Positions 24,614-61,000 of a DNA stretch of 64,000 nt are shown piece after piece. Under the pieces are notes generated by a model that was not told where the DNA came from, searched no databases, and saw nothing but the letters and a program-made list of their open reading frames with translations. This stretch comes from Bryopsis sp. KO-2023 (Eukaryota; Chlorophyta; Ulvophyceae; Bryopsidales; Bryopsidaceae), in NCBI GenBank assembly GCA_030272585.1, contig BSYQ01000002.1, forward strand, positions 5,394,001-5,458,000, written 5' to 3'. Every line of letters starts with the position of its first letter. Position 1 is the stretch's first letter. Position numbers and translations under genes: made by a program.

Positions 24614-25576
24614 GGGTGACTTTCATGTTATAGATTCGTCAATCCTATTGAATATTTAGAAAAAGACTATTCTCTTCTTCGGTTGTGAAATATGCTCTTC
24701 ATTAATTGCTTGTAGCCACTCCTCTAACTCAGAGGCTCTAAGAGGCTTTCAATTGTCCTGGTAACCTTCTGGAAAACAAAAGGTCCCCGGGGATTGAGTA
24801 CACTCACTCGGGGATTTACTCACTATGCAATATTTTTACGGGCTACCTTCCATCCATGCTCCATTGATTTCTTACACGAGGTAAGAGCTGAGTTCTGAGT
24901 TGTTTTAACAGATCCTAGCGCTATTTTTATACTCGCAGCCAGTTCCCTCACCGTGTGCCTTTTGATGGCAACACCGGATCTGTTATTTGTATAACTAAAC
25001 CCTCATCGGTGGTTTAAAATGGTGTTTCAAAATACTTTATAAACGTTCCTTTTATCTATCGACTTTAATCTCTCTCGAGTACTTTCTTCAATAGGCTCTC
25101 GCTCGTTATATTTTCGAGAAAATTCGGGAAAAGATGGTCAAGGGCCTTGACTCAAGGTAGTACTTGTCCTCTAATCAATGGGAGCGCCGGATTTGTAAGC
25201 ATTGTGCATTCTTTGACTAACATAACTTCAAATATACTACAAGCTTAACTATTCGTTCGTTCGTGGATGTTGACTTCTTGCCGTTATATATATATATACC
25301 CTTTCCTCGACCTCTCAATCTCAAAGCATTTGGGTCAAATTCATTTTTTGTACCAACTATAAATACATCATAACAATAACTTTTGCTTGCGCGAGAGATG
25401 ACATATGCCGGGTGTTTGATTTGATCAAAATAAATCTTGAGCGACATTGTCGATTTCTTTAATACACCTGTGGAGCTCATCTTATGAGTATGATACGTTC
25501 AAATAGCATGAAGAATCTCATCAATGTATTTTTTTCGAGAGTAAATTGATGATCGTCGTCTTTTCACGCGACCAAG

Positions 25577-25862
25577 TGTGGTGAAAAATGAGAGTCGATA
25601 GTTAGATGAGAAGGGGAAATGGGACGAAATGAGACGCGTGGGTGTTTGCGGCTGAATGGCCGAGTTGTGATGACGGGAGAAAACTTGTGGTTGATCTGTG
25701 TTGTGAAGTTGTGGCTGTGGATTCGGGAAGAGAAACAGGAACGATATTTAGAGGGACTGTTTTGTTGTAAAGACGCCTTATTTGCTTTGAGTTAACGGAG
25801 CGACTTGTCTGCGAACGTTTCGTTTCAGTGTATCAAACAGTTTGGAAAAACTTTATTCCACA
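25577..25862 (+). repeat. 5' LTR
   Basis: 286 bp, starting TGTGGTGAAAAATG and ending TTTATTCCACA. Differs from the 3' LTR at one position (25738). A GATATTTAGAG stretch near 25745 could serve as a TATA-like element; the U3/R/U5 borders cannot be fixed by eye. Confidence 0.95.
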
Positions 25863-28393
25863 TGGTTTCGGAGCGCAACCCCCTGGGGTTTTTACTCCTG
25901 TTGTATGGGCTTCTTTGGCTCACTATGACGAGCCCTTTCGCGCCACATATTCTGGTCGAAAGGTCGACCCTGTTGCGTCGCAAGGAGCGACGAAAAATAT
26001 GGAGCGCGACTCTTGCTCCTCGTCCGGTAACACTTGTTGAGTTTTTGCGTTGGGTTTCGAGGGCGCTGTTATTAACTCTTCTTCAGATAGGAGGGGTCGA
26101 ACAACACCCTGGACCTTCGTCTGGGGAACAGCGCTACTCGGCCTGGACGCGAGAACTGGACCAATGGCTGTGGGCAGTGGTGACTGCAGCCAATACTTCG
26201 TTTGGCTCACGACTCAAGGCGCTGCTCAAGTATTTCGACTTGAACGCCTCGGGTGGCCAGGTTATCGCCAGGATCGCCGCTGAGATTGCAGAGAAGGACG
26301 CAACTGAGTTGGTGAACGAATTTCACGGAGGGACGGTTCCTGGCGGAGGGTTTACGACGTCACACCGGTGGGATTGCTTAAGAAAACGCTTGGAGGAGAC
26401 CTTTCCGCATCCAACAACACTGGATGTTGAGCGATTACTGACGAACATGAAGAAGGGACCCCACGAATCGTTACGAGGTTTTGTCAAAAGATTCGTTTTG
26501 AGAGCACAGTCATATCCTACCTCTCAGTTGGATGTGCAACGTGCGGCACATATATTATATCGAAAGCTGCCTTCGTCCCTCCAACAAGGTTTAGCGGTTA
26601 CTCCTTTGACTAATTGCTCTCTTGACAAATTGGAGGAAACGGTGGTGACTTACGTCAATTGGAATACAGTGTCGACTTCTCCAGGCAAACTCCCGGCGCC
26701 CGATTACATGGATTTGGATCAGTTGCAGTTAGGGGCGCATGGCTTGGCGAAAGAAGACGAATTGGAAAGGGAACAGCACGTGGAGGGCTTGAGATATCAG
26801 CGAGGGAAGTCACGACCCCCAGTCGTGGAAGGAGACAAAATCCATTTTGATCGTATCGATGGTCCGATGTCCCTGGTTGCGGCGTGGAAAGCATTGGTGA
26901 CGACAGGTCGTTATTATCGACAGCTTTCTCAGGAACATCTACAGCGTTTGGGGAATAAGGACATGCATCGTCACATGCGTGATATGGGGATTCAGCAAGT
27001 GCGTTTTCGTGATCACACTGTGGTGCCTGACGACTATATTGACGAACACTCGGTCCAGGGATCTGATGATGCGGACCAGGTGGGACGTGTGACCGAGTTA
27101 AATGACGACGACGCTGATGCGTTGTTTCCTATGACGACGGCGCCATGTTCCAAACATCCACAGTCGTCGATCGTGATCCGTGCAGAGAATTCGTCTCTCA
27201 CTGAATATTATGATGCGCGAGAGGATTTTTCGCAAAGCAACGGTTCGATGGCAGTTTCTCACGTGGATGAGGGTGAGGTGGTGGACAGCGGGCCTCCTTT
27301 TTCGGCCACACGGTTTTTGGGAATGCGTCTTCGAGATGTGGATCTCTCCAGACTTTCGATTCCGGATCAAGTCTTACAGCAGCCGCCATTTACGTCATCT
27401 CCCCCAATTCGACCTGTGGTTTCGAATGTTGAAGTTCCCCCTGCGCCTCCGTTTTCCTGGGCTGCACCCATTTCTGGCGGACCAATCGTGAATGCGCCGT
27501 TCCCTGCACCTTTGGATGATGGGGCGCCTTCCCGCCAGCTGGCTTTCGCGGATTTGGATATTGCGTCGTCTTCTTCTCGCGATGTGTCCATGTTGGAGGC
27601 TCCAGTGGTGGAAACGATTTTGGAATCATCGACGACGACCTCTGATGTGGGCGACCAGGTGGAATTGCTCAGTTGCCAGCTTTTGGATTCCACTCCTCCA
27701 TTGAAGTGTAATCATGTCCAAGGCAAACAAAAAAAATCGCTGCATGTCCCTCTTTGGGCGAATGATACGCGACTGTCCGCCCTTGTGGATACGGGGGCGA
27801 CTCATAGCTTTGTGCAACTGGCCCTCGTCAAATCCTTACATCAAGAAGGACGCATGCGCCCTTGTGGTCGCAGTGTGGTGTTTGGTAATGGCGAATCCGC
27901 TCCTATTCTTGGACAGCTGGAGTTGGAGGTTCGAGTCTCGCCTAAGGCGACGGAAACGTTTTCTGTTTCCTTATATGTGCTTTCAGGCAAGGGGCCACCT
28001 CTCATTTTGGGCTTTCCATTTTTAGAGCAACACGGCTTTTTGGTGGACTGCTCTCGCCGGTTGTTAACGCGCCCCCATTCTCCTGTCGTTCACTGCGATC
28101 GGGCATCCTCCACCTCCCCTCCTGTGCGCCTCCTGTCTACTCTCTCACCTCTGACGATCCCTGCCGGCGCCACCCTGGCTGTGCCCACTGATGCCTCCCT
28201 CTCCAATGCAGACTTGTGCCATGTCCAAGTCCATCCCCAGCTGGCCCAAAAATACCACCTTCACGTGCTTTCTTCGGGCATCGACCGTGCGGGTACCTTC
28301 AAGGTGGTCCTCCACAACCTGGCCTCCTCCCCCTGTTCCCTCCCCACTGACCTCCCCTTCTGTCAGTTGTGGCTTCGGTCACAAAAAAACTGA
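25862..28393 (+). CDS. gag-pro: Gag-protease polyprotein of Ty3/gypsy element
   Basis: 843 residues from ATG 25862 (last LTR base plus the first two bases of the primer site) to TGA 28391-28393. Residues 8-30 and 58-76 are hydrophobic/basic. They lead into a 2A-like motif at about 77-85 (GGVEQHPGP), which might release the leader co-translationally. Residues ~115-267 are a retrotransposon Gag domain (helical; YFDLNASGG start; VKRFVLRAQS and LPSSLQQGL motifs). No CCHC zinc knuckle is seen. The central part is acidic/Pro-rich. Residues ~620-740 are a retropepsin-type aspartic protease: D-T-G-A at 643-646 (nt 27788-27799) and ILGFPFLEQHG near 714. Gag packages the RNA; the protease matures the polyprotein. 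The frame remains open upstream inside the LTR without an ATG. The stop lies exactly at the frameshift site, so most translation yields Gag-Pro. Confidence 0.9.
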   Translation: MVSERNPLGFLLLLYGLLWLTMTSPFAPHILVERSTLLRRKERRKIWSATLAPRPVTLVEFLRWVSRALLLTLLQIGGVEQHPGPSSGEQRYSAWTRELDQWLWAVVTAANTSFGSRLKALLKYFDLNASGGQVIARIAAEIAEKDATELVNEFHGGTVPGGGFTTSHRWDCLRKRLEETFPHPTTLDVERLLTNMKKGPHESLRGFVKRFVLRAQSYPTSQLDVQRAAHILYRKLPSSLQQGLAVTPLTNCSLDKLEETVVTYVNWNTVSTSPGKLPAPDYMDLDQLQLGAHGLAKEDELEREQHVEGLRYQRGKSRPPVVEGDKIHFDRIDGPMSLVAAWKALVTTGRYYRQLSQEHLQRLGNKDMHRHMRDMGIQQVRFRDHTVVPDDYIDEHSVQGSDDADQVGRVTELNDDDADALFPMTTAPCSKHPQSSIVIRAENSSLTEYYDAREDFSQSNGSMAVSHVDEGEVVDSGPPFSATRFLGMRLRDVDLSRLSIPDQVLQQPPFTSSPPIRPVVSNVEVPPAPPFSWAAPISGGPIVNAPFPAPLDDGAPSRQLAFADLDIASSSSRDVSMLEAPVVETILESSTTTSDVGDQVELLSCQLLDSTPPLKCNHVQGKQKKSLHVPLWANDTRLSALVDTGATHSFVQLALVKSLHQEGRMRPCGRSVVFGNGESAPILGQLELEVRVSPKATETFSVSLYVLSGKGPPLILGFPFLEQHGFLVDCSRRLLTRPHSPVVHCDRASSTSPPVRLLSTLSPLTIPAGATLAVPTDASLSNADLCHVQVHPQLAQKYHLHVLSSGIDRAGTFKVVLHNLASSPCSLPTDLPFCQLWLRSQKN
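25863..25880 (+). promoter_or_regulatory. Primer binding site (tRNA-primed)
   Basis: Begins TGG directly at the LTR edge (TGGTTTCGGAGC), as required to pair with the 3' CCA end of a tRNA. It resembles the initiator-Met type TGGTATCAGAGC at 10 of 12 positions. The tRNA is not certain. The gag ATG overlaps this site by two bases. Confidence 0.7.
26093..26116 (+). promoter_or_regulatory. 2A-like ribosome-skipping motif (coding)
   Basis: Encodes GGVEQHPGP at about residues 77-85, preceded by a leucine-rich segment (RALLLTLLQI). The canonical 2A motif is D-V/I-E-x-N-P-G-P. Here Asp is Gly and Asn is His, so activity is uncertain; the Pro-Gly-Pro end and the upstream hydrophobic helix are as expected. 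Confidence 0.45.
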
Positions 28394-28426
28394 ACCCTGT
28401 CCCGGTGGCCCCCCCCGGCCGCCGGG
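28384..28426 (+). promoter_or_regulatory. -1 programmed ribosomal frameshift cassette
   Basis: Slippery heptamer A AAA AAC at 28384-28390, in the gag frame, is followed at once by TGA (28391-28393). After a 10-nt spacer comes a 10-bp hairpin: CCCGGTGGCC (28401-28410), loop of six C, GGCCGCCGGG (28417-28426), with nine Watson-Crick pairs and one G-U. The downstream frame is exactly -1, so slippage enters the pol frame at 28390. Confidence 0.9.
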
Positions 28427-31224
28427 ACCCCCCCCCCTCCCCTCCCCTTCCCCCTCCCTCCCCTCCCCCCTCCCCCCCTCTCACCTACACTGAGACCCCC
28501 CCCTTTGTCCCCTTTTACCATCACCTCCGTCTCCACTTCCCCTTCGGGCGCAGTTGGGTCCTCCCTCCCCATTCCAGCCGTAGCCTCACCCTCCCCCTCC
28601 GCCTCCCCCCTGGTTCCCTCTCCGACCTCGTCGACTCCCTCCCCCTCTGTGGCGTCCATTTTCGCGTCAAGTCTGACGGCTGCCGCATTTGGGGCATTGT
28701 GACCAACACCACCTCCCGCCCCCTCCACCTCACTGCCCGGATGACCCTGTGCTCCGCCCGTTCCACCCTGTCCTCCTTCGTCGTCCCCGACTCCTCCTCC
28801 TCGTTTCCCATTCCATCTCGTCCCTCCACCTGTCCTTTCCGTCTCCCCTCGGAGTTGGCAGGGAAGATTTCCTCTCTCCCGGCAGACCTGGCTACAGAAC
28901 CGAACCCTGAAGTGGCGAAGTTGATTCGGGAATTCCCCGAGGTGTTTTCCAATACTCTGGGCTGCTGCAAGTCTCACACTGTGGGACCGCTACCCTTCGA
29001 CTTTTTGCCCCCTCCTCAAGAACATGTCAAGTCGTTACTTAGCGGCCCAGTGGAGGAGGAAAAATTATGGTCTCAAATTCAGGAGTGGGAAAGCCAGGGC
29101 ATCGTTCGAGAGGTACAGAAAGAACCTTTTCTGATCCCGATTTTTGGTATACCGAAAAAAGACAGCACCCTGACTAGATGGGTTTCTGATTTTCGACGAT
29201 TAAATGCATGTGTGGGAAAAAGGCCTTGCCAGTTGCCAACTGTTGAGCATTCGATCGCAGGAGTGAGACCTTTTTCGATTGGCAGTTCTATTGACCTCAA
29301 GGATGCATATTTTCAAGTGAAAATGCATGCCGATGCATCTCGTTTTATGGGGCTGCAATGCAAAAATCGGTGGTACGTGTGGAATAGACTCCCACAGGGG
29401 TATTCTAATGCCAGTTTTGAATTTACTCGAGCGATTAGAACCGCTATAGTTCGGGCTCAGAAAAGAATGAATTCTCAAGTATTGTCTTATTTGGATGACG
29501 TTATTTTGCTGTCAGAAAATAAGGTGCAGCACAAAAGGGACTTGCGAATTTTGCTGGAAGAGTTGCGTAGGGATGGGTGGACTGTAGGGTATAAAAAATG
29601 CGCTTTCTTTCGAACTGAATTCGAATTTTTGGGGATAAAACTATCGACACAAGGGATGACGCCAGGTGCAAAACTGTGGAATAAATTGGAAACGTTAAAA
29701 AAACCAGTGACGAAAACAGAGTGGCGTTCGGTGAGAGGCTGGTTCAATCAGTTGGCTCGTTTTGTTTTTCGAGGACAGGAAGCGTTAAAAAGTTTACAGC
29801 AGGCAGAATTGTTATCGTGTGAAGTGAAGTGGAGGGAATTCCTAGACTTTTTGCGCGCACATACTGTTCGTTGTAGTTATGTTGGAAAAAATTCCCAGTC
29901 TTTTGTTGTGTCAGTAGACGCTTCGAAGTTTGGGTGGGGGGCAGTTTTATTAAATAAACAGAAAATAATAAAGTGCGCCAGTGGTTCGTGGGCTAAGTCT
30001 TTTAGACACAAAATGTCTAACGAATTAGAATTAGAAGGAGTGTTGCGATCGCTGGATGTGTTTAGGCCCTGGATATTTGGCCAGCCAGTAGTCGTGATGA
30101 CTGATAATTCTTCAGTACAAAGTTTTATGAATCCGGCTAACACTAGCGATTTTATCAAGAGGCGGCTTGATAAAATATTAGCGGTGGCTCCAGAGGTCAG
30201 GTTTATTCCAGGTGCAGCCAACGTGGTGCCTGATTTATTATCGCGTTTTGAAGAAGGAAACAAGGTACATGCAGCGACGGTTAATCCAACAGACAGAGAT
30301 TGGCAAGAGGTGCATCAAGGGCATGTGGGTGTCTACCAATCGTGGGCTCGTGAACGGAGATTGAAGAAGGGTTTTTCTCACGACGAAATAAAGCGAAGAG
30401 TGTCGGCGTGTGAGGTGTGTCAGCGTTTTCAAAAGCGAACGCCTTGCGCGGAGTTTGGTTATATACAGCAGTCGACAGCTCCGAATGCGGTGGTCGCCTT
30501 AGATTTCGTGGGTCCAGTACAGAAATCTGCAAAGGGTAATAAGTTTTTTTTAGTGTTGATTGATGCTCTTACAAGACAAACTCTAGTTCGAGCTTGTAAG
30601 CTTAATTCGGCAGCGGCAGCTGTAGCAGCGTTGAAAGAATGGGAGGTCAAATTTGGGAAAATAAAAAACGTAATGACCGACAACGCTAGTTGCTTTTGGT
30701 CTTGGGCGTATACTGGATTTTGTATTTCACGAGATATTGAGAGGATTTATGTGCCGCCGTATTCGCATAAATCCAACGGTCTCGTGGAGCGAGCCAATCA
30801 GAATGTGATTGGGCGCATTCGTCGGCTGATGTTGGCGATGAAAACGCAGGACTGGGAGAGCGTATTAGGTCAGACGCAACAGGCGTTAGATACTATGGTG
30901 AACAGGGTAACGCAGTTTACTCCGACAGAACTCAGGCAAGCAGGGCCATCTATGTGGAAGGTCGCAGTTCGACGTATGATGGCTCACAGACAAAAGGTGA
31001 ATGCGAAATATCGCAAGGGCTTGCGAGAACGAGAATGGAAGAACGGGCAGAGAGTTTACGTGTACGATTTCAAAAGGGAAACTCGTAAACAGCATAAATT
31101 CGATCCTTATTGGATTGGACCAGGACTTATTGTAGGAAGGGAATCGAGAACTATTTTGAAGGTGTCAATGCCACACCAAGTGATTAGAGTTCACTCTGAT
31201 TTTGTTTTTCCTGTGAACGGTTAG
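28390..31224 (+). CDS. pol: Pol: reverse transcriptase, RNase H, integrase
   Basis: 944 residues in the -1 frame, expressed by frameshifting; stop TAG at 31222-31224. Residues 1-160 are an unusual Pro/Ser-rich linker from C-rich DNA. Reverse transcriptase spans ~220-470 (SDFRRLN, LPQGYSNASFEF, catalytic Y-L-D-D at nt 29488-29499, FLGIKLS). RNase H spans ~500-620: D in SVDASKFGWG, E in ELELEG, D in MTDNSS, D in NVVPDLLSR. Integrase starts ~640 with the zinc finger (H-x3-H in HQGH with C-x2-C in CEVC). It continues with catalytic D in ALDFVGP, D in VMTDNASC and E in GLVERANQ, the last two separated by exactly 35 residues (D,D35E). The C-terminal part has the GPGLIVG SH3-like segment. No chromodomain is evident. 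All catalytic residues are intact. Confidence 0.93.
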   Translation: MNPVPVAPPGRRDPPPSPPLPPPSPPPSPPLTYTETPPFVPFYHHLRLHFPFGRSWVLPPHSSRSLTLPLRLPPGSLSDLVDSLPLCGVHFRVKSDGCRIWGIVTNTTSRPLHLTARMTLCSARSTLSSFVVPDSSSSFPIPSRPSTCPFRLPSELAGKISSLPADLATEPNPEVAKLIREFPEVFSNTLGCCKSHTVGPLPFDFLPPPQEHVKSLLSGPVEEEKLWSQIQEWESQGIVREVQKEPFLIPIFGIPKKDSTLTRWVSDFRRLNACVGKRPCQLPTVEHSIAGVRPFSIGSSIDLKDAYFQVKMHADASRFMGLQCKNRWYVWNRLPQGYSNASFEFTRAIRTAIVRAQKRMNSQVLSYLDDVILLSENKVQHKRDLRILLEELRRDGWTVGYKKCAFFRTEFEFLGIKLSTQGMTPGAKLWNKLETLKKPVTKTEWRSVRGWFNQLARFVFRGQEALKSLQQAELLSCEVKWREFLDFLRAHTVRCSYVGKNSQSFVVSVDASKFGWGAVLLNKQKIIKCASGSWAKSFRHKMSNELELEGVLRSLDVFRPWIFGQPVVVMTDNSSVQSFMNPANTSDFIKRRLDKILAVAPEVRFIPGAANVVPDLLSRFEEGNKVHAATVNPTDRDWQEVHQGHVGVYQSWARERRLKKGFSHDEIKRRVSACEVCQRFQKRTPCAEFGYIQQSTAPNAVVALDFVGPVQKSAKGNKFFLVLIDALTRQTLVRACKLNSAAAAVAALKEWEVKFGKIKNVMTDNASCFWSWAYTGFCISRDIERIYVPPYSHKSNGLVERANQNVIGRIRRLMLAMKTQDWESVLGQTQQALDTMVNRVTQFTPTELRQAGPSMWKVAVRRMMAHRQKVNAKYRKGLREREWKNGQRVYVYDFKRETRKQHKFDPYWIGPGLIVGRESRTILKVSMPHQVIRVHSDFVFPVNG

Positions 31225-31246
31225 AGAAAGAAAGCGCAGGGAAGCG
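31223..31246 (+). promoter_or_regulatory. Polypurine tract
   Basis: Purine-rich AGAGAAAGAAAGCGCAGGGA run abutting the 3' LTR, the expected primer for plus-strand synthesis. It has two or three pyrimidine interruptions. Confidence 0.65.
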
Positions 31247-31532
31247 TGTGGTGAAAAATGAGAGTCGATAGTTAGATGAGAAGGGGAAATGGGACGAAAT
31301 GAGACGCGTGGGTGTTTGCGGCTGAATGGCCGAGTTGTGATGACGGGAGAAAACTTGTGGTTGATCTGTGTTGTGAAGTTGTGGCTGTGGATTCGGGAAG
31401 AGAAACATGAACGATATTTAGAGGGACTGTTTTGTTGTAAAGACGCCTTATTTGCTTTGAGTTAACGGAGCGACTTGTCTGCGAACGTTTCGTTTCAGTG
31501 TATCAAACAGTTTGGAAAAACTTTATTCCACA
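31247..31532 (+). repeat. 3' LTR
   Basis: 286 bp, identical to the 5' LTR except at 31408. Followed by the target duplication CAAG. Confidence 0.95.
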
Positions 31533-31536
31533 CAAG

Positions 31537-49232: not shown

Positions 49233-50414
49233 CTAGGGCTGACAGACAACAGAAAGCCCTACAGTCCCCATGGTTCCCACAAACGAATTAATCCTGTTGA
49301 TGTTCGCGATCATATGCTGACCTCGAAAATTCCAAAACCCCACCGTATTCATGTCCCCCACATAGTCGATAGTAAAAGGGCCGACCCAATCAGCCTCGTA
49401 CTTTCTTCCCACAGACGTCACTGCGGCCGTATTGTGCATCAAGATCGCGTCACCCAATGCAACCTTCGGCACTCAGACACTCTTTTCTTGCTTCTCCATT
49501 CGGCGTTCCCCTTGGCTGCGCGTGAGCTCCCTCACATCTTTTTGTATCGCGTCCAACCAGAAAAGCCTCTGCCGCACCGCGCCTTGCCTGTCGCCTTCGC
49601 TGGCCTCCAAAGTAGCCCCGCGATGCACCAATGGTCGTTTGCCCAAAACGAAACGCCGGGTCCGAGCCTCAGAGGCAGTCTTCATTTTGCAACCGAACAG
49701 GGCTTCGAAGGGGGTCATCCCGATCACCGCATTGACGCGGTTATTTACAACCAGAACAGCCTGCCCCAAAGCATCATCCCAGCTCCTCACAGCCCCGGTC
49801 TCCTCCATCCATTTCTTAAGCTTCGTTGTGATTAGCTTGTTTGCCAACTCGACCGCGCCGTGCGCTTCTGGGTGATAAGGGGAAAATACCTTGCGCGTTA
49901 CTCCAAATTGGATACAAGTGTGATCGAATTGACCTTTGAAATGTTGGCCCCCATCAGTAAGCACGTACACCGGGCTGCCAAAGCGGTAAAGAACTCGCTC
50001 CCTGAAGAACTTAGACGCGACCGCAGACGATGCAGCGTGAACCGCCTGCGCGTCGACGTGGCGTGAAAACAAATCCACGCACACGATAAGGTGTTTCCGA
50101 CCATCCATTGTGACCGGCAGGTTCAACACAAAGTCCAACGCAACAATCTCAAAGGGCTCCTCTGTCGCGTTCGGAAACTCACGCCCCTGAAACTTTCGTG
50201 CTCCGAACTTCTGGCACACCACACAAGCTGCACAAAAGTGTTTTATTGCTTGCCACATCCCTGGGAAGTAAACCTCCTTTGCCAGTCTCGAATACATGGC
50301 TGCAGTCCCTAGATGCCCTGCCACAGGGCCGGCGTGATACTCTCGCAACGTCTTGTCCACCTGCTCCTCCCTAAAACACCGCCTTAGATCTTCAGTCCGG
50401 TCAACATAAAACAT
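49233..50414 (-). pseudogene. Ty3/gypsy integrase remnant with in-frame stop
   Basis: The minus-strand frame shows the integrase zinc finger (H and H in HAGPVAGHLG, C-x2-C in CAACVVC). The core follows with D in VALDFVLNLP, D in VLTDGGQHF and E in HGAVELANK; the second D to E spacing is 34 rather than 35. A single TGA at 49473-49475 interrupts the frame. The same frame continues with the C-terminal SH3-like part (RKYEADWVGPFTI). The N-terminal end before ~50380 is the linker that normally joins RNase H to integrase. The NG-x2-ER motif is degenerate (HGAVELANK). Broken and not expected to work. Confidence 0.8.
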
Positions 50415-50456
50415 CGTTTCTCCTTTCAGCGCGAACCTCAGGGCCTTTGTACGTAG

Positions 50457-52949: not shown

Positions 52950-54496
52950 TATATATTACATTCTGCACAGTCATAACGCTAGTCGTCGCTTTGTACGTAG
53001 CTTCGCTTGAAAAAAAATTGACTTATAGGAGTTAGCTGAGTTCTCTCGTCGTGCTAAAAATAGTGAGACTACACCCTCTTTTTGTTGATTCACCAACCCC
53101 CCTAGTTTTTGTTGCCCGCAGTTTTCCCTTTTGAACTCGTGACCACAGCCTCGCAACCCACTCCACCCAAGGATGTATATCAGACCCGCTCGCATTCACC
53201 AGGGTATTGTTACGGGTGGCAACTGTAACATGTATGGTGCGCAATTGCTTAATGGAGTTGGTAAGCGCAGGTTGTAAAAAGAGCAAGTCGTTGTGTATAG
53301 ACAATCGCTCAGATCGTTTGTTGAAGTAAAAACCCAGTGAGGCTTATTAAACTACTTTATTTCTTTTTTATTCTACCCGGAATTGGCCCAACAAATCCCA
53401 TTTTTGTCCATCTTTTTGTTGTTTGTTCGCTTCGAGTCCCAAGCCCTCTCCGTCCTCCTCTCCCTACCCCCGCTCTCTTCCCCCCTTTTTTCTTTCATAA
53501 TATACCTCTTGATCCAACTGAAGCATGGTTCGAAAGAGGGTTTTTCTCTATCACAGTAAAAACACAAAAAGAAAGGAACAGTTTGCACAAACCACAACAA
53601 ATTTTCGTCCAAATTATACATAGGAATGAAAAGTTTTTTTCTCCCTACTGAGTTACTGTTGGGCTGATGGATAAATGTATGAGGGCAAACATGATTTTTT
53701 TTCATGAAACTTGAACTATCATCTACCTTAGTATATCAGTGGTTTGTGAGGTCAGTTAGCCAAGAGCATTCTTGATATTTTTACAGCAAGGCTTTCTCTT
53801 GATATGTTCACAATTCTTTTTTCAATACTTCAGTGTGTCTTTGCAGAAAATCAAGTTATGATCCTCAAGTATGGTTCGTGAAGCTTGATTCAATATTCAT
53901 TGTTCAATTAATAGTTGAGGGGGGGGGGGGGGTGATGGTCCACCCAAGACTTTCACAACCTATCAAAAACTCGTTCTCCTTACAGTGGATCGATTTTTGC
54001 TTGCAAGAAAAAGGACTGAATTCCAGGTGTTTCTGTGGACTGGTGCACTATTATTAGCCTCGAAAAAAGAAAGGATAAGAGAATTCTCGAAAAAGGAGGA
54101 GTCCAATCTTTTCCCAGCACAATATTTTCTTTGGCTTAAACTCCCTCTGGAGCTCTTATGTTCCTTTTTTTTTTGCAGCTGCTCGCCCAACAATATTAGT
54201 TCCCCCCTGCGTTTGCAAATCGAAAATGTAACAATAAAAGTTTAATGGAAAAAAGAAAAGGGGCTTTCAGAGTTCGAAACGCAGTGGGGAGTCGAACCCC
54301 GTCACTCTGAGCCGTTTCCAGTGCGTCTGAGACCCCCTCAATTTTTCAACACCAAATCAACCCGCACAAAGCTTTCCTACTCCCTTCAGTGGAGCGAAAA
54401 AGAGTAACCCCGACGACTTCGTCGCGACTTGTCCCTGGTGGTGTACCGTGGTTCGATTCCGCGGATAGGTAGATGCAAGGACGACCACCAATCAAA
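52950..54496. other. Right margin of the island, gene-poor
   Basis: G-run at 53921-53933 marks the return of flank-type composition. T-arm-like stem-loops lie at 54287-54303 (minus) and 54447-54463 (plus, CGTGG-TTCGATT-CCGCG), both without a complete tRNA. No exon supported. Confidence 0.4.
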
Positions 54497-54922
54497 ACGT
54501 TTTTCAGCCTCAGCCCCTTGAATAGGCCTTGCACTTCCTCGTGAGAAGCAGTGTGTTTTTCCGACTCGCTGGTGATTGAGTCCTCAGCGGGGGTCCTGTG
54601 TGTCAGACTTGAACCCTCACCTTCCGTTTTGCGCAAGGCGGAAACATTCTCCCCCCCTGAACGAAACTATGGCGGCAAGTCTGGGAATACACCTGCGCAG
54701 TCAGAGTCAACGTTTTTCAGCCTCAGCCCCTTGAATAGGCCTTGCACTTCCTCGTGAGAAGCAGTGTGTTTTTCCGACTCGCTGGTGATTGAGTCCTCAG
54801 CGGGGGTCCTGTGTGTCAGACTTGAACCCTCACCTTCCGTTTTGCGCAAGGCGGAAACATTCTCCCCCCCTGAACGAAACTATGGCGGCAAGTCTGGGAA
54901 TACACCTGCGCAGTCAGAGTCA
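54497..54922. repeat. Exact 213-bp tandem duplication
   Basis: 54497-54709 and 54710-54922 read identically, base for base as far as I can follow. On the minus strand each unit is open and encodes a Ser/Thr/Glu-rich stretch (SITSESEKHTASHEEVQG), but the unit junction leads to a stop, so coding is doubtful. Confidence 0.92.
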
Positions 54923-55165
54923 AACCTGGGCATTAACTCTAGGCCCTCGAACAGATCTGGCGACGCGGTTCGTGATATGCTTTGTAGCTGTGGGCAAGGG
55001 GACGAAACGTTCGACTTTTTTCGACCTCCAACAGTCGACATCCGACCTCCAACCACGTACACGGGTTGAAAGCTGTGGCTAACCCCGGCGTCGATTGACG
55101 ACAGTGCACTCTGTCGGAGCCACTCTGCAAAACACCCTCTGCGGGTCATTGAAAGCGAGTGGGTC
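54923..55165. other. Short unassigned stretch
   Basis: Linker between the tandem duplication and family A copy 3. Nothing recognised. Confidence 0.4.
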
Positions 55166-58020: not shown

Positions 58021-61000
58021 CTACAAGTCAGTTGTAGGACCTGTGTCAGACACAGAATTTTCAGCTTCAGCCCCCTCTTCAATTGTTGGGGCGCTTTTTG
58101 GGCTCCCAGGCGGTGGATCTGTTACACCAAAATCCAAAAAAACGATCCTCACATATCTTTTGGATGTTTAAAAATAGACCATGTTTTCGGTTTCCAAATA
58201 TACGCCGACTGTCCCACAGACAAGAGTGTGGGTGTGACTGACTTGGACTGACCAAACCATCGGATCGTGAAAAGGATACAGGAAAACCGGCACTCCCAGC
58301 CATCCATATAGAAAGAAGAAGAGAGTGAATGTTGAGACAGAACTTACCACGGAGGGCCCTCACGCTGGTTTCCGCTATTTCCCTGAGCCCCTGGCGTAAA
58401 CCCGCGATCTCGTTGTGGGCGTCGGCCAGCTCAACGAAAGCCGCATAGCAGCTCTCGGATTCGGACTCGCCATCCCCTACACAGACAGACAGACACCATC
58501 AGCATTCAATTCAATCCAGCTGCACAATAAGCCAAAACGACATCATAACTGTCCATCGCTCCCTTTCCAACAAAAAACACCGTTCATTCATCTTGAATAT
58601 CGAATTTGTGGGTCATTTTTTTCTCCCCAATTCAAGCATTTTCAACCCTTCAGGAGCGCCAGTGTTGCTGATTGATCCTTGCCGTTTGTTCTGAATTCCA
58701 ATGATATCCTCACAGCACAAACAAATCGAATCCTCACCGGTTGCAGACTTGTTTTGGGCCCCGGCGAGGGAGTTGCCATGCTCCAGGGAAAAGAGCGCCG
58801 CACGCAGGCTGGCTCTTTCCCCCTCCAAATCCTTCTTGAGCTCGGCAATTTCTTGCTCCGCTCTGTCCATCTCCTGCGGTGTGATGCACACCGCGGCGAC
58901 GGACGCTGCCTTCAGCTCCTGCAAACAAAACCCCACCAACACACAACCGTCGTTCAATTACAATCACTGTGTTGGTATTTCTCAGACAACCGCCCTACTT
59001 CTTTCACAACTTCGACATCAGCAAACGAGGAGCGGGTAAAACCATCCCAACACAAAACTGCGGTGTTGTTTCGTATGTGGTGAATTTCAGCTCATTCATC
59101 TGCTCCATGTCAGGATTCCGTGGTTAGATCAGAGGAAGTCGTAATATTGAGACAGCACTGACACAGCATTAAAGAAAGCAAAAAGAGGGCAAAAAATTCA
59201 AACACTCACCGTCAGGGACGAAACCAGCGACACGCTGCACCCGAGCTGTCGCCTGAAGGTCTCCTGGATGAGGCGGTTTTCGGCCTCGATCCAGTCGCCG
59301 AACGAGTCTCCCTTTTTCGAGCTCGACTCGCTCGACAACCTTCTCGCCATGGCCACCACCTCATCTATTCGACCTTGCAGGAGCCTGGACTTGGTGCTCT
59401 GCAAGGAAGAAGGGGAGAGGAAAAAAAAACAACCCAACATCAGAAATGCTGATCGGGAAGAAACATATCTTTCATCTCCTGGTGCTCAATTAATGATCCA
59501 AGCGATTGGCTGATTGCCTTTTCCAGTGGGCATTGGATTGTCACAATGTAAATGAACAGTTATGACCCCAGCAGTGTAACCGCAGGCGAAAGAAAATTTT
59601 GAACTCCATGTCGAGTTTCCATGTAGATTGTGTTGGGCACAGCAAAGCAAAAGAAATATCCAAAAGCAATGTGATTCTGAAAGGGATTCTTTCCCGATAA
59701 CAATTAGACACAATGCCTCCCTCTTTCCAATCCAATGATCAAATTTTTCATGCTTTGTTTGCTGGATGACGTTAAACCTTTACTCATTTGGTTGGCAAGA
59801 GTCCATTCAGCTGTATATGTAGGCAAACTGTGCCCACAGGTTTTCCAATCGTAAAAAAAGGCAGTGCAAGTAAAGGCAATATCGAAGCGAAACAGACAAG
59901 CAAATGGACGACCCACCTTCCAGCAGTCGACATACGGGTGGGCTTGGGGGCGCTTCGCCTTGATGAACTCCAGGGCGCTGTGGAGTTCCCGACCCTGAAA
60001 TTCAAACCACCAAAAAAGACAGAAAGGCAATCGAAACTTAATCCACAGCACCACCACTTCATTACACAACAAAAAACCATCAAAGCAAAGTTGAAACACC
60101 ATTATGCAATTCTTATCTATATGTATAAACAATCCGGATGCACGTTCTATGCAAGTTTTCTCCCAGTTGAATGACCTCGATCGATGCTTTACCTGCACGA
60201 AGGTCATATACCCCAACACAGTCAGGGTGGCGCGGTTGATCCCCGCTGTGCAGTGGACGTAGACTCTATTGTTGAGGGCCAACAACATCGCCAGCGTCCG
60301 CACAGCTTCCGGCAACATCAGGGTTTGATCCCCGTGATCGAAATCACGTATGGGGACCCTGGTCATTGCCACGCCCTTCTCCACAGCTCGCACCCTGATG
60401 GCCTCCCAATCGATGCCCAGTGCTTTCAAGCATAGGTCGCACTGTGAAGGGAACACAAGGTGTTAGAGGATGGCTGTCCCAGGTCGAAGATTTGAAAAAA
60501 GGCAACGGAGAAGGGGGGATTCCGCAATTGATAATCAAGAGCATGCATGCATTTTGAAGGTTTCTGCCCTGGATGGCAACATCAGAATGGAGAAAGGGAA
60601 AAACACTGGGACAATATGATCACCAGGTCAAGCTGATGGCCCTAATGATAATTTTGATTATCTGATGGACCTCCCTAATACGAGGTATCGTACAAAAGCA
60701 CTACGTCGCAACATCTGGAATTCTTTTTTCGTTCGGCAAGGATGGGAGGACAGGAAAGAGCAACTCCGCGAACAAACCTGCAGGGACAAGACGGCCGTCG
60801 CTCCGGCCTCCTCCGCGATCCTCTCCTGCAAGTCGAAAAAAGCAATCAAGAAAATTATCAGCGCTCGTAGAACACCCCGAAGACAAACTGATATGTAGCA
60901 GGAAAAACCAAAACGAAACGATGATGACGCGGGAAAACAACTGGATGGTAATAATAGCATTGAAGGAAACGCACCAAGTCTTGCGGAGCCCTGGGACAAG

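Follow-up and report, generated by a model that had tools for sequence, protein, structure and literature searches.

A probable −1 ribosomal frameshift signal between protease and reverse transcriptase in a Ty3-like LTR retrotransposon of the green alga Bryopsis

Introduction

In the alpharetrovirus Rous sarcoma virus, the protease is encoded in the gag frame, and a −1 shift leads from there into the reverse transcriptase (RT). The pattern expected for this virus is given as '0/-1' in excerpts of PMC1224870, and among chicken alpha ERVs the same excerpts report -1/-1 more often than 0/-1. Unlike that source, excerpts of PMC5009743 place the protease within the 5' portion of pol. They further name A_AAA_AAC as one of the heptamers most prone to shifting on mammalian ribosomes, give 5-9 nt as the most-studied spacers, and cite a 2003 survey in which pol was in the −1 frame in 28 of 51 animal LTR elements, many of them with classical heptamers (PMC5009743). 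For plants, the excerpted account of that survey has just two element types with separate frames known at the time, both of them +1 (PMC5009743). Concerning 2A sequences, excerpts of PMC4981915 describe sea urchin NLRs in which a 2A at the N-terminus is joined to a signal sequence. Literature searches naming Bryopsis found no paper on Bryopsis LTR elements, and literature searches found no report of a gag-protease / −1 / pol layout such as the one described below.

The DNA scanned here, referred to as the window, is a stretch of 64,000 nucleotides (C2:5394001-5458000) from Bryopsis sp. KO-2023, the assembly of which comprises 91.1 Mb in 28 contigs. It contains a young, intact Ty3-like LTR retrotransposon, and a cassette between the two reading frames of this element is, to judge from sequence comparison, very probably a programmed −1 ribosomal frameshift signal. 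Frameshifting of this kind is a textbook mechanism; the novelty lies in the host lineage, in the conserved set of families that share the signal, and in its occurrence together with a 2A-like leader and with dUTPase-like domains on either side.

Like the gag-pro/pol arrangement of Rous sarcoma virus, the Bryopsis element has its protease in frame with gag, and RT is predicted to be reached by a −1 shift. Unlike the virus, it has A_AAA_AAC followed by a stop codon and a plain predicted hairpin, and it is an algal LTR retrotransposon with dUTPase-like domains beside the junction and no third ORF noted. With the animal −1 LTR retrotransposons of the 2003 survey, as excerpted in PMC5009743, it shares a pol frame that is −1 to gag; it differs from them in its green-lineage host and in that several −1 families occur in Bryopsis.

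Structure of the element

The element spans 5,956 bp (25577-31532; all positions are those of the window, and all features of the element are on the + strand). Its two LTRs, of 286 bp each (5' LTR, 25577-25862; 3' LTR, 31247-31532), are direct repeats of the form TGTGG...CCACA with limits set by eye. They differ by one mismatch, which, together with a CAAG target-site duplication (25573-25576 and 31533-31536), points to a recent insertion. LTR ends of TG..CA with a short (4-6 bp) target duplication, and the domain order protease-RT-RNase H-integrase found with Pfam, are those of Metaviridae and make the element Ty3-like. The LTRs, this domain order and the short target-site duplication are likewise shared with plant Ty3/gypsy elements such as those of Selaginella. 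Unlike the Bryopsis element, the plant Ty3/gypsy elements described in excerpts of PMC3350952 carry gag and pol in a single ORF.

ORF1 (25862-28393), the zero frame, encodes a leader, Gag, an aspartic protease (27746-28021; Pfam Asp_protease_2, E 1.5e-7) and a dUTPase-like tail, as read from the ORF list and Pfam; the Gag core gave a weak match to Retrotrans_gag (E 0.14, under the cut-off). ORF2 (28351-31224; ORF list, Pfam) encodes a linker, a putative second dUTPase-like domain, RT (29149-29643; RVT_1, E 1.9e-23), RNase H (29893-30162; RT_RNaseH, E 1.7e-13) and the integrase core (30475-30765; rve, E 4.7e-8). The two frames overlap at 28351-28393. The linker corresponds to a C-rich tract (28429-28489) that is Pro-rich in the pol frame and varies in length among copies. 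The ATG of ORF1 (25862) stands at the junction of the LTR and the presumed primer-binding site. The first codons of ORF1, MVSER, coincide with that presumed site (25862-25880), and an MVSE start is common to families B, C and E and to the relative P0201, all of which are introduced below.

The frameshift site

ORF1 closes with the zero-frame codons CAA AAA AAC TGA (28382-28393). The slippery heptamer A_AAA_AAC (28384-28390; zero frame AAA AAC), which has the form X_XXY_YYZ, thus lies in the upstream frame and inside the overlap, and the UGA stop of ORF1 (28391-28393) is directly 3' of it. A spacer of 8 nt that includes the stop (28391-28398) separates the heptamer from a predicted 12-bp stem (5' arm, 28399-28410; 3' arm, 28417-28428), located by folding and by comparison of copies and capped by a predicted C6 loop (28411-28416), so that a 3' structure is predicted at a distance inside the range of 5-9 nt. 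An earlier, sequence-only reading of this DNA had already noticed the heptamer in the upstream frame, the stop immediately after it and a pol frame that is exactly −1, and all of these are as it had described them. The hairpin that it placed there is also predicted here, but with a different size and distance: it was described as 10 bp at ten bases downstream, and these 10 bp are the inner part of the longer stem.

The predicted stem holds one G.U pair and has a folding energy of −27.3 kcal/mol. Its stability corresponds to z = −6.2 over 50 nt and −7.7 over 100 nt, and at both lengths none of 200 dinucleotide shuffles was equally stable; within the 3.3-kb piece, the 60 nt 3' of the heptamer ranked 11th in stability among 1080 folding windows. 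When folding began at 28391, the minimum free energy (MFE) structure made up 0.93-0.94 of the predicted ensemble and every stem pair had a probability of 0.99-1.0. With 20 nt added upstream, a small second stem formed at the heptamer and the share of the full MFE structure fell to 0.63, while the 12 pairs stayed at 0.99-1.0. Since a single register dominates the predicted ensemble, the earlier suggestion that alternative pairing registers exist within the C-run was not borne out.

From this arrangement we infer a ribosomal shift at the site, its frequency and its stimulation by the hairpin. Most ribosomes would decode AAA AAC and terminate at the UGA, which yields Gag-protease together with the dUTPase-like tail. 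Slowed by the predicted 12-bp hairpin that begins 8 nt farther on, a minority would slip back by one base at A_AAA_AAC with re-pairing of both tRNAs, and would then read the Pro-rich linker, the second dUTPase-like domain, RT, RNase H and integrase. The shift would in this way set how much structural protein is made relative to the copying enzymes, the enzymes being a rarer extension of the shell protein.

Copies of the same family

Relatives of the element were collected from at least 150 RT matches, and 60 stretches, besides the window's own element, were fetched for reading of the junction. Family A was defined as 18 copies among the matches listed, namely the window's copy and 17 others, with RT identity of at least 93.9%. 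Heptamer, TGA and hairpin are present in 15 of these 18 copies; in the remaining three (L020, L021, L025), the matching sequence starts only downstream of the heptamer and the region is missing. Related copies without the heptamer or stem, which the sequence-only reading had named as evidence against its proposal, were thus limited in family A to these three.

All 12 stem pairs are kept in 14 of the 15 copies, and L016 keeps 11, with one mismatch. One stem position is G.U in the window's subfamily (5 copies) and A-U in nine of the ten A2 copies. The compensatory stem changes that had been proposed as a further check were not found among family A copies, the stem of which barely varies: there is only this one G.U/A-U difference and one broken pair. 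In the comparison of A1 with A2, the cassette was no peak of nucleotide conservation. Despite changes in the length of the C-tract, 13 of the 15 copies have a spacing between site and RT that equals 1 mod 3 (763, 781, 790, 841, 853 or 862); the exceptions are L022 and L023, in which pol is out of the −1 frame.

Related families in the genome

The heptamer is conserved in families A-E, that is, in five of the seven families with a −1 overlap, and four of those five have a hairpin. RT identity to the window's element is 38-46% for families B-G and 40-46% for B-E. Family B (L028-L031; 4 copies) has AAAAAAC TGA with a long branched hairpin 7 nt downstream (−40.5 kcal/mol over 60 nt; rank 2 of 1081 folding windows), and one copy, L030, keeps heptamer and hairpin with a pol frame that is interrupted farther down. 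Family C (L026, L027, L055) has AAAAAAC and a 15-bp hairpin at 7 nt (rank 10 of 1114), with the stop at the loop of the hairpin. In family E (L040-L043, L047; 5 copies), AAAAAAC is followed directly by TAG, and the 10-bp stem at 8 nt is weak (rank 338 of 1114). The hairpins of B, C and E, at 7-8 nt, are unrelated to that of the window. Family D (L032-L035; 4 copies) has AAAAAAC GAT TAG and no hairpin, the sequence 3' of the heptamer being A-rich and unstructured (60 nt fold, 0.0 kcal/mol).

Families F (L036-L039) and G (L044-L046, L048) have −1 overlaps of 46 and 31 nt without a canonical heptamer; these contain the U-runs CGG TTT TTT CCT and CCG GTT TTT CAG, respectively. In related families J (e.g. 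L063, L064) and N (L072), pol overlaps in +1, by 32 and 38 nt, and in related family I (e.g. L059) there is a single long ORF. The protease lies in ORF1 in the −1 families A-G and also in the +1 families J and N. Its upstream position, which the sequence-only reading had set against the many Ty3/gypsy elements that shift at gag/pro or use one ORF, is therefore real but general to all seven −1 families and to J and N. In an RT-only tree of 20 rows, limited to elements of the Bryopsis sp. KO-2023 genome, A clusters with B and C (84/96), and a second cluster unites D, E, L053 and L054 (94/98, drawn open); the placement of F and G is unsupported, and I together with J sits on a long branch that falls within the same group of 15 rows.

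The families bear on whether the hairpin has a part in the shift at all. It might be incidental, with the C-rich linker forming stems readily and the heptamer working alone; the base composition around the site is extreme, and family D keeps heptamer and frame without any stem. We nevertheless regard this as unlikely, because the hairpin stands well outside the dinucleotide shuffles described above and because families B and C, which have no C-tract at that place, have unrelated and highly ranked stems at nearly equal spacing. They bear likewise on a second alternative, in which slippage on the run of A, during either transcription or reverse transcription, would insert one additional A into some RNAs, from which pol could be read with no ribosomal shift. 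For bacterial IS elements, excerpts of PMC5009743 give slippage during transcription as a known alternative, and the window does have a run of seven A (28383-28389), as do families D and E. Subfamily A2 and families B and C, however, have just six A and then C, which indicates that conservation concerns the tandem-slip heptamer rather than a long A run, and the hairpins that four families are predicted to have at 7-8 nt are in keeping with ribosomes; slippage of this kind is very unlikely.

With a programmed ribosomal shift as the preferred reading, the element and its relatives supply well-supported −1 frameshift cassettes for LTR elements of the green lineage, where the 2003 survey, as excerpted in the 2016 review PMC5009743, had only +1 cases for plants. 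As one genome holds heptamer with hairpin, heptamer alone, −1 overlap without heptamer, +1 overlap and single ORF, a change of recoding strategy can be compared directly.

Selection and overlap statistics

For estimates of dN/dS, the window's element was compared with the A2 copies L013 and L017, two of the ten A2 copies with the cassette. In these comparisons, dN/dS was 0.17-0.18 for the last 400 codons of ORF1 and 0.21-0.25 for the part of pol that precedes RT; in RT it was 0.014-0.031, with dS near saturation. These low values show that both frames are maintained: ORF1 and ORF2 are both under purifying selection. The claim of the sequence-only reading that Gag and protease lie upstream and only RT-RNase H-integrase depends on the shift is thus supported by anatomy, by related copies and by selection.

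Within the overlaps, 5 of 68 codon positions carry an in-frame AAAAAAC, compared with 2 of 4589 in the remainder of the ORF1 parts that were read (Fisher p = 1.2e-8). This test took one representative for each of families A-G, picked for having pol in −1, and left out the +1 families J (L061-L065) and N (L072), the single-ORF elements I (L057-L060) and L069-L071, and the broken or unclear copies L053-L056 and L066-L068.

The constraint on pol also weighs against the least probable of the alternatives, a separate message or start for pol, either by splicing with the C-rich tract as acceptor context or by re-initiation at the earliest pol-frame ATG (28741): although the tract at 28429-28489 is pyrimidine-rich and this ATG, 390 nt into ORF2, is still upstream of RT, no in-frame ATG lies close to the ORF1 stop, so that a separate start would lose most of the second dUTPase-like domain, while the C-tract is absent from families B-E, pol upstream of RT is as a whole selectively constrained, and the site stays in frame with RT in all but two of the family A copies that have it, which leaves this explanation barely credible.

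Protein relatives and the flanking domains

In protein searches, no protease domain was detected at E 0.1 in the six top-ranking pol relatives out of 79 (identity of these six, 32-41%); among more distant pol relatives, some carry a protease within the same protein. Four ORF1-like proteins, P0200-P0203, were found at 32-40% identity. P0200 (40%) ends in TQKN, compared with SQKN for ORF1, an end that would be expected from CAR AAR AAY plus a stop and that is seen at the protein level only. It is alone in this among the four, the QKN end being absent from P0201-P0203.

Two dUTPase-like domains appear to flank the shift site, the first, a degenerate one, recognized by its sequence and the second by its predicted fold. 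The first, at the C-terminus of ORF1 (28133-28375), matched Pfam dUTPase at E 0.05, with 13.8 bits against a cut-off of 22, and therefore stays under the cut-off, but it aligns with clear dUTPase domains in P0201-P0203. P0201 and P0202 have DAGxD, which we take to be the first dUTPase catalytic motif, and in the alignment the aspartates of this motif are missing from the ORF1 tail. The second is a predicted all-beta domain at the start of pol (28486-28773).

The 2A-like leader

The hydrophobic N-terminal leader of ORF1 ends in a 2A-like motif, GGVEQHPGP (26090-26116). At the same place, one A2 copy has HPGP, and families D and E and relatives P0200-P0203 have NPGP; the motif is GCVESNPGP in family D and GCVEVNPGP in family E. 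The copies concerned in families A, D and E, besides the window's own, are L035, L040-L042, L047 and L073. It was absent from the one family B leader and the one family C leader examined. Like viral and non-LTR 2A/StopGo sequences, the leaders of D, E and P0200-P0203 end in GxxExNPGP-like motifs. Unlike those known cases, the Bryopsis motif precedes the Gag of an LTR element, and it departs from the published consensus -D[V/I]ExNPGP-: the window has G for D and H for N, and the consensus D is absent from families D and E and from P0200-P0203 as well, though NPGP is present there.

Taken together, these features would allow two recoding signals in series on one green-algal LTR message, a proposal that, going by sequence features, we consider evenly balanced. 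A 2A-like StopGo would free a membrane-targeting leader from Gag, and a −1 shift between two dUTPase-like domains would yield Gag-protease-DUT and Gag-protease-DUT-DUT'-RT-RNaseH-IN in a set ratio, while related elements in the same genome use +1 overlaps or one ORF. Both the 2A-like leader before Gag and the pair of dUTPase-like domains that flank the site are additions that lend themselves to testing.

Other features of the window and genome

A separate second integrase ORF lies on the minus strand at 49473-50456, with an H2C2 zinc-binding motif and an rve core; it is probably a remnant of another LTR element. The window also contains a tandem duplication (54496-54923) with two copies of a 213-bp unit at 100% identity, and a host-like protein encoded on the minus strand at 59707-60462, which matches a Bryopsis sp. 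KO-2023 protein with 93% identity across 36% of its length. Elsewhere in the assembly, COX1 was found in four matching pieces (L049-L052) over about 12.6 kb of contig C27, which is probably an intron-rich mitochondrial genome.
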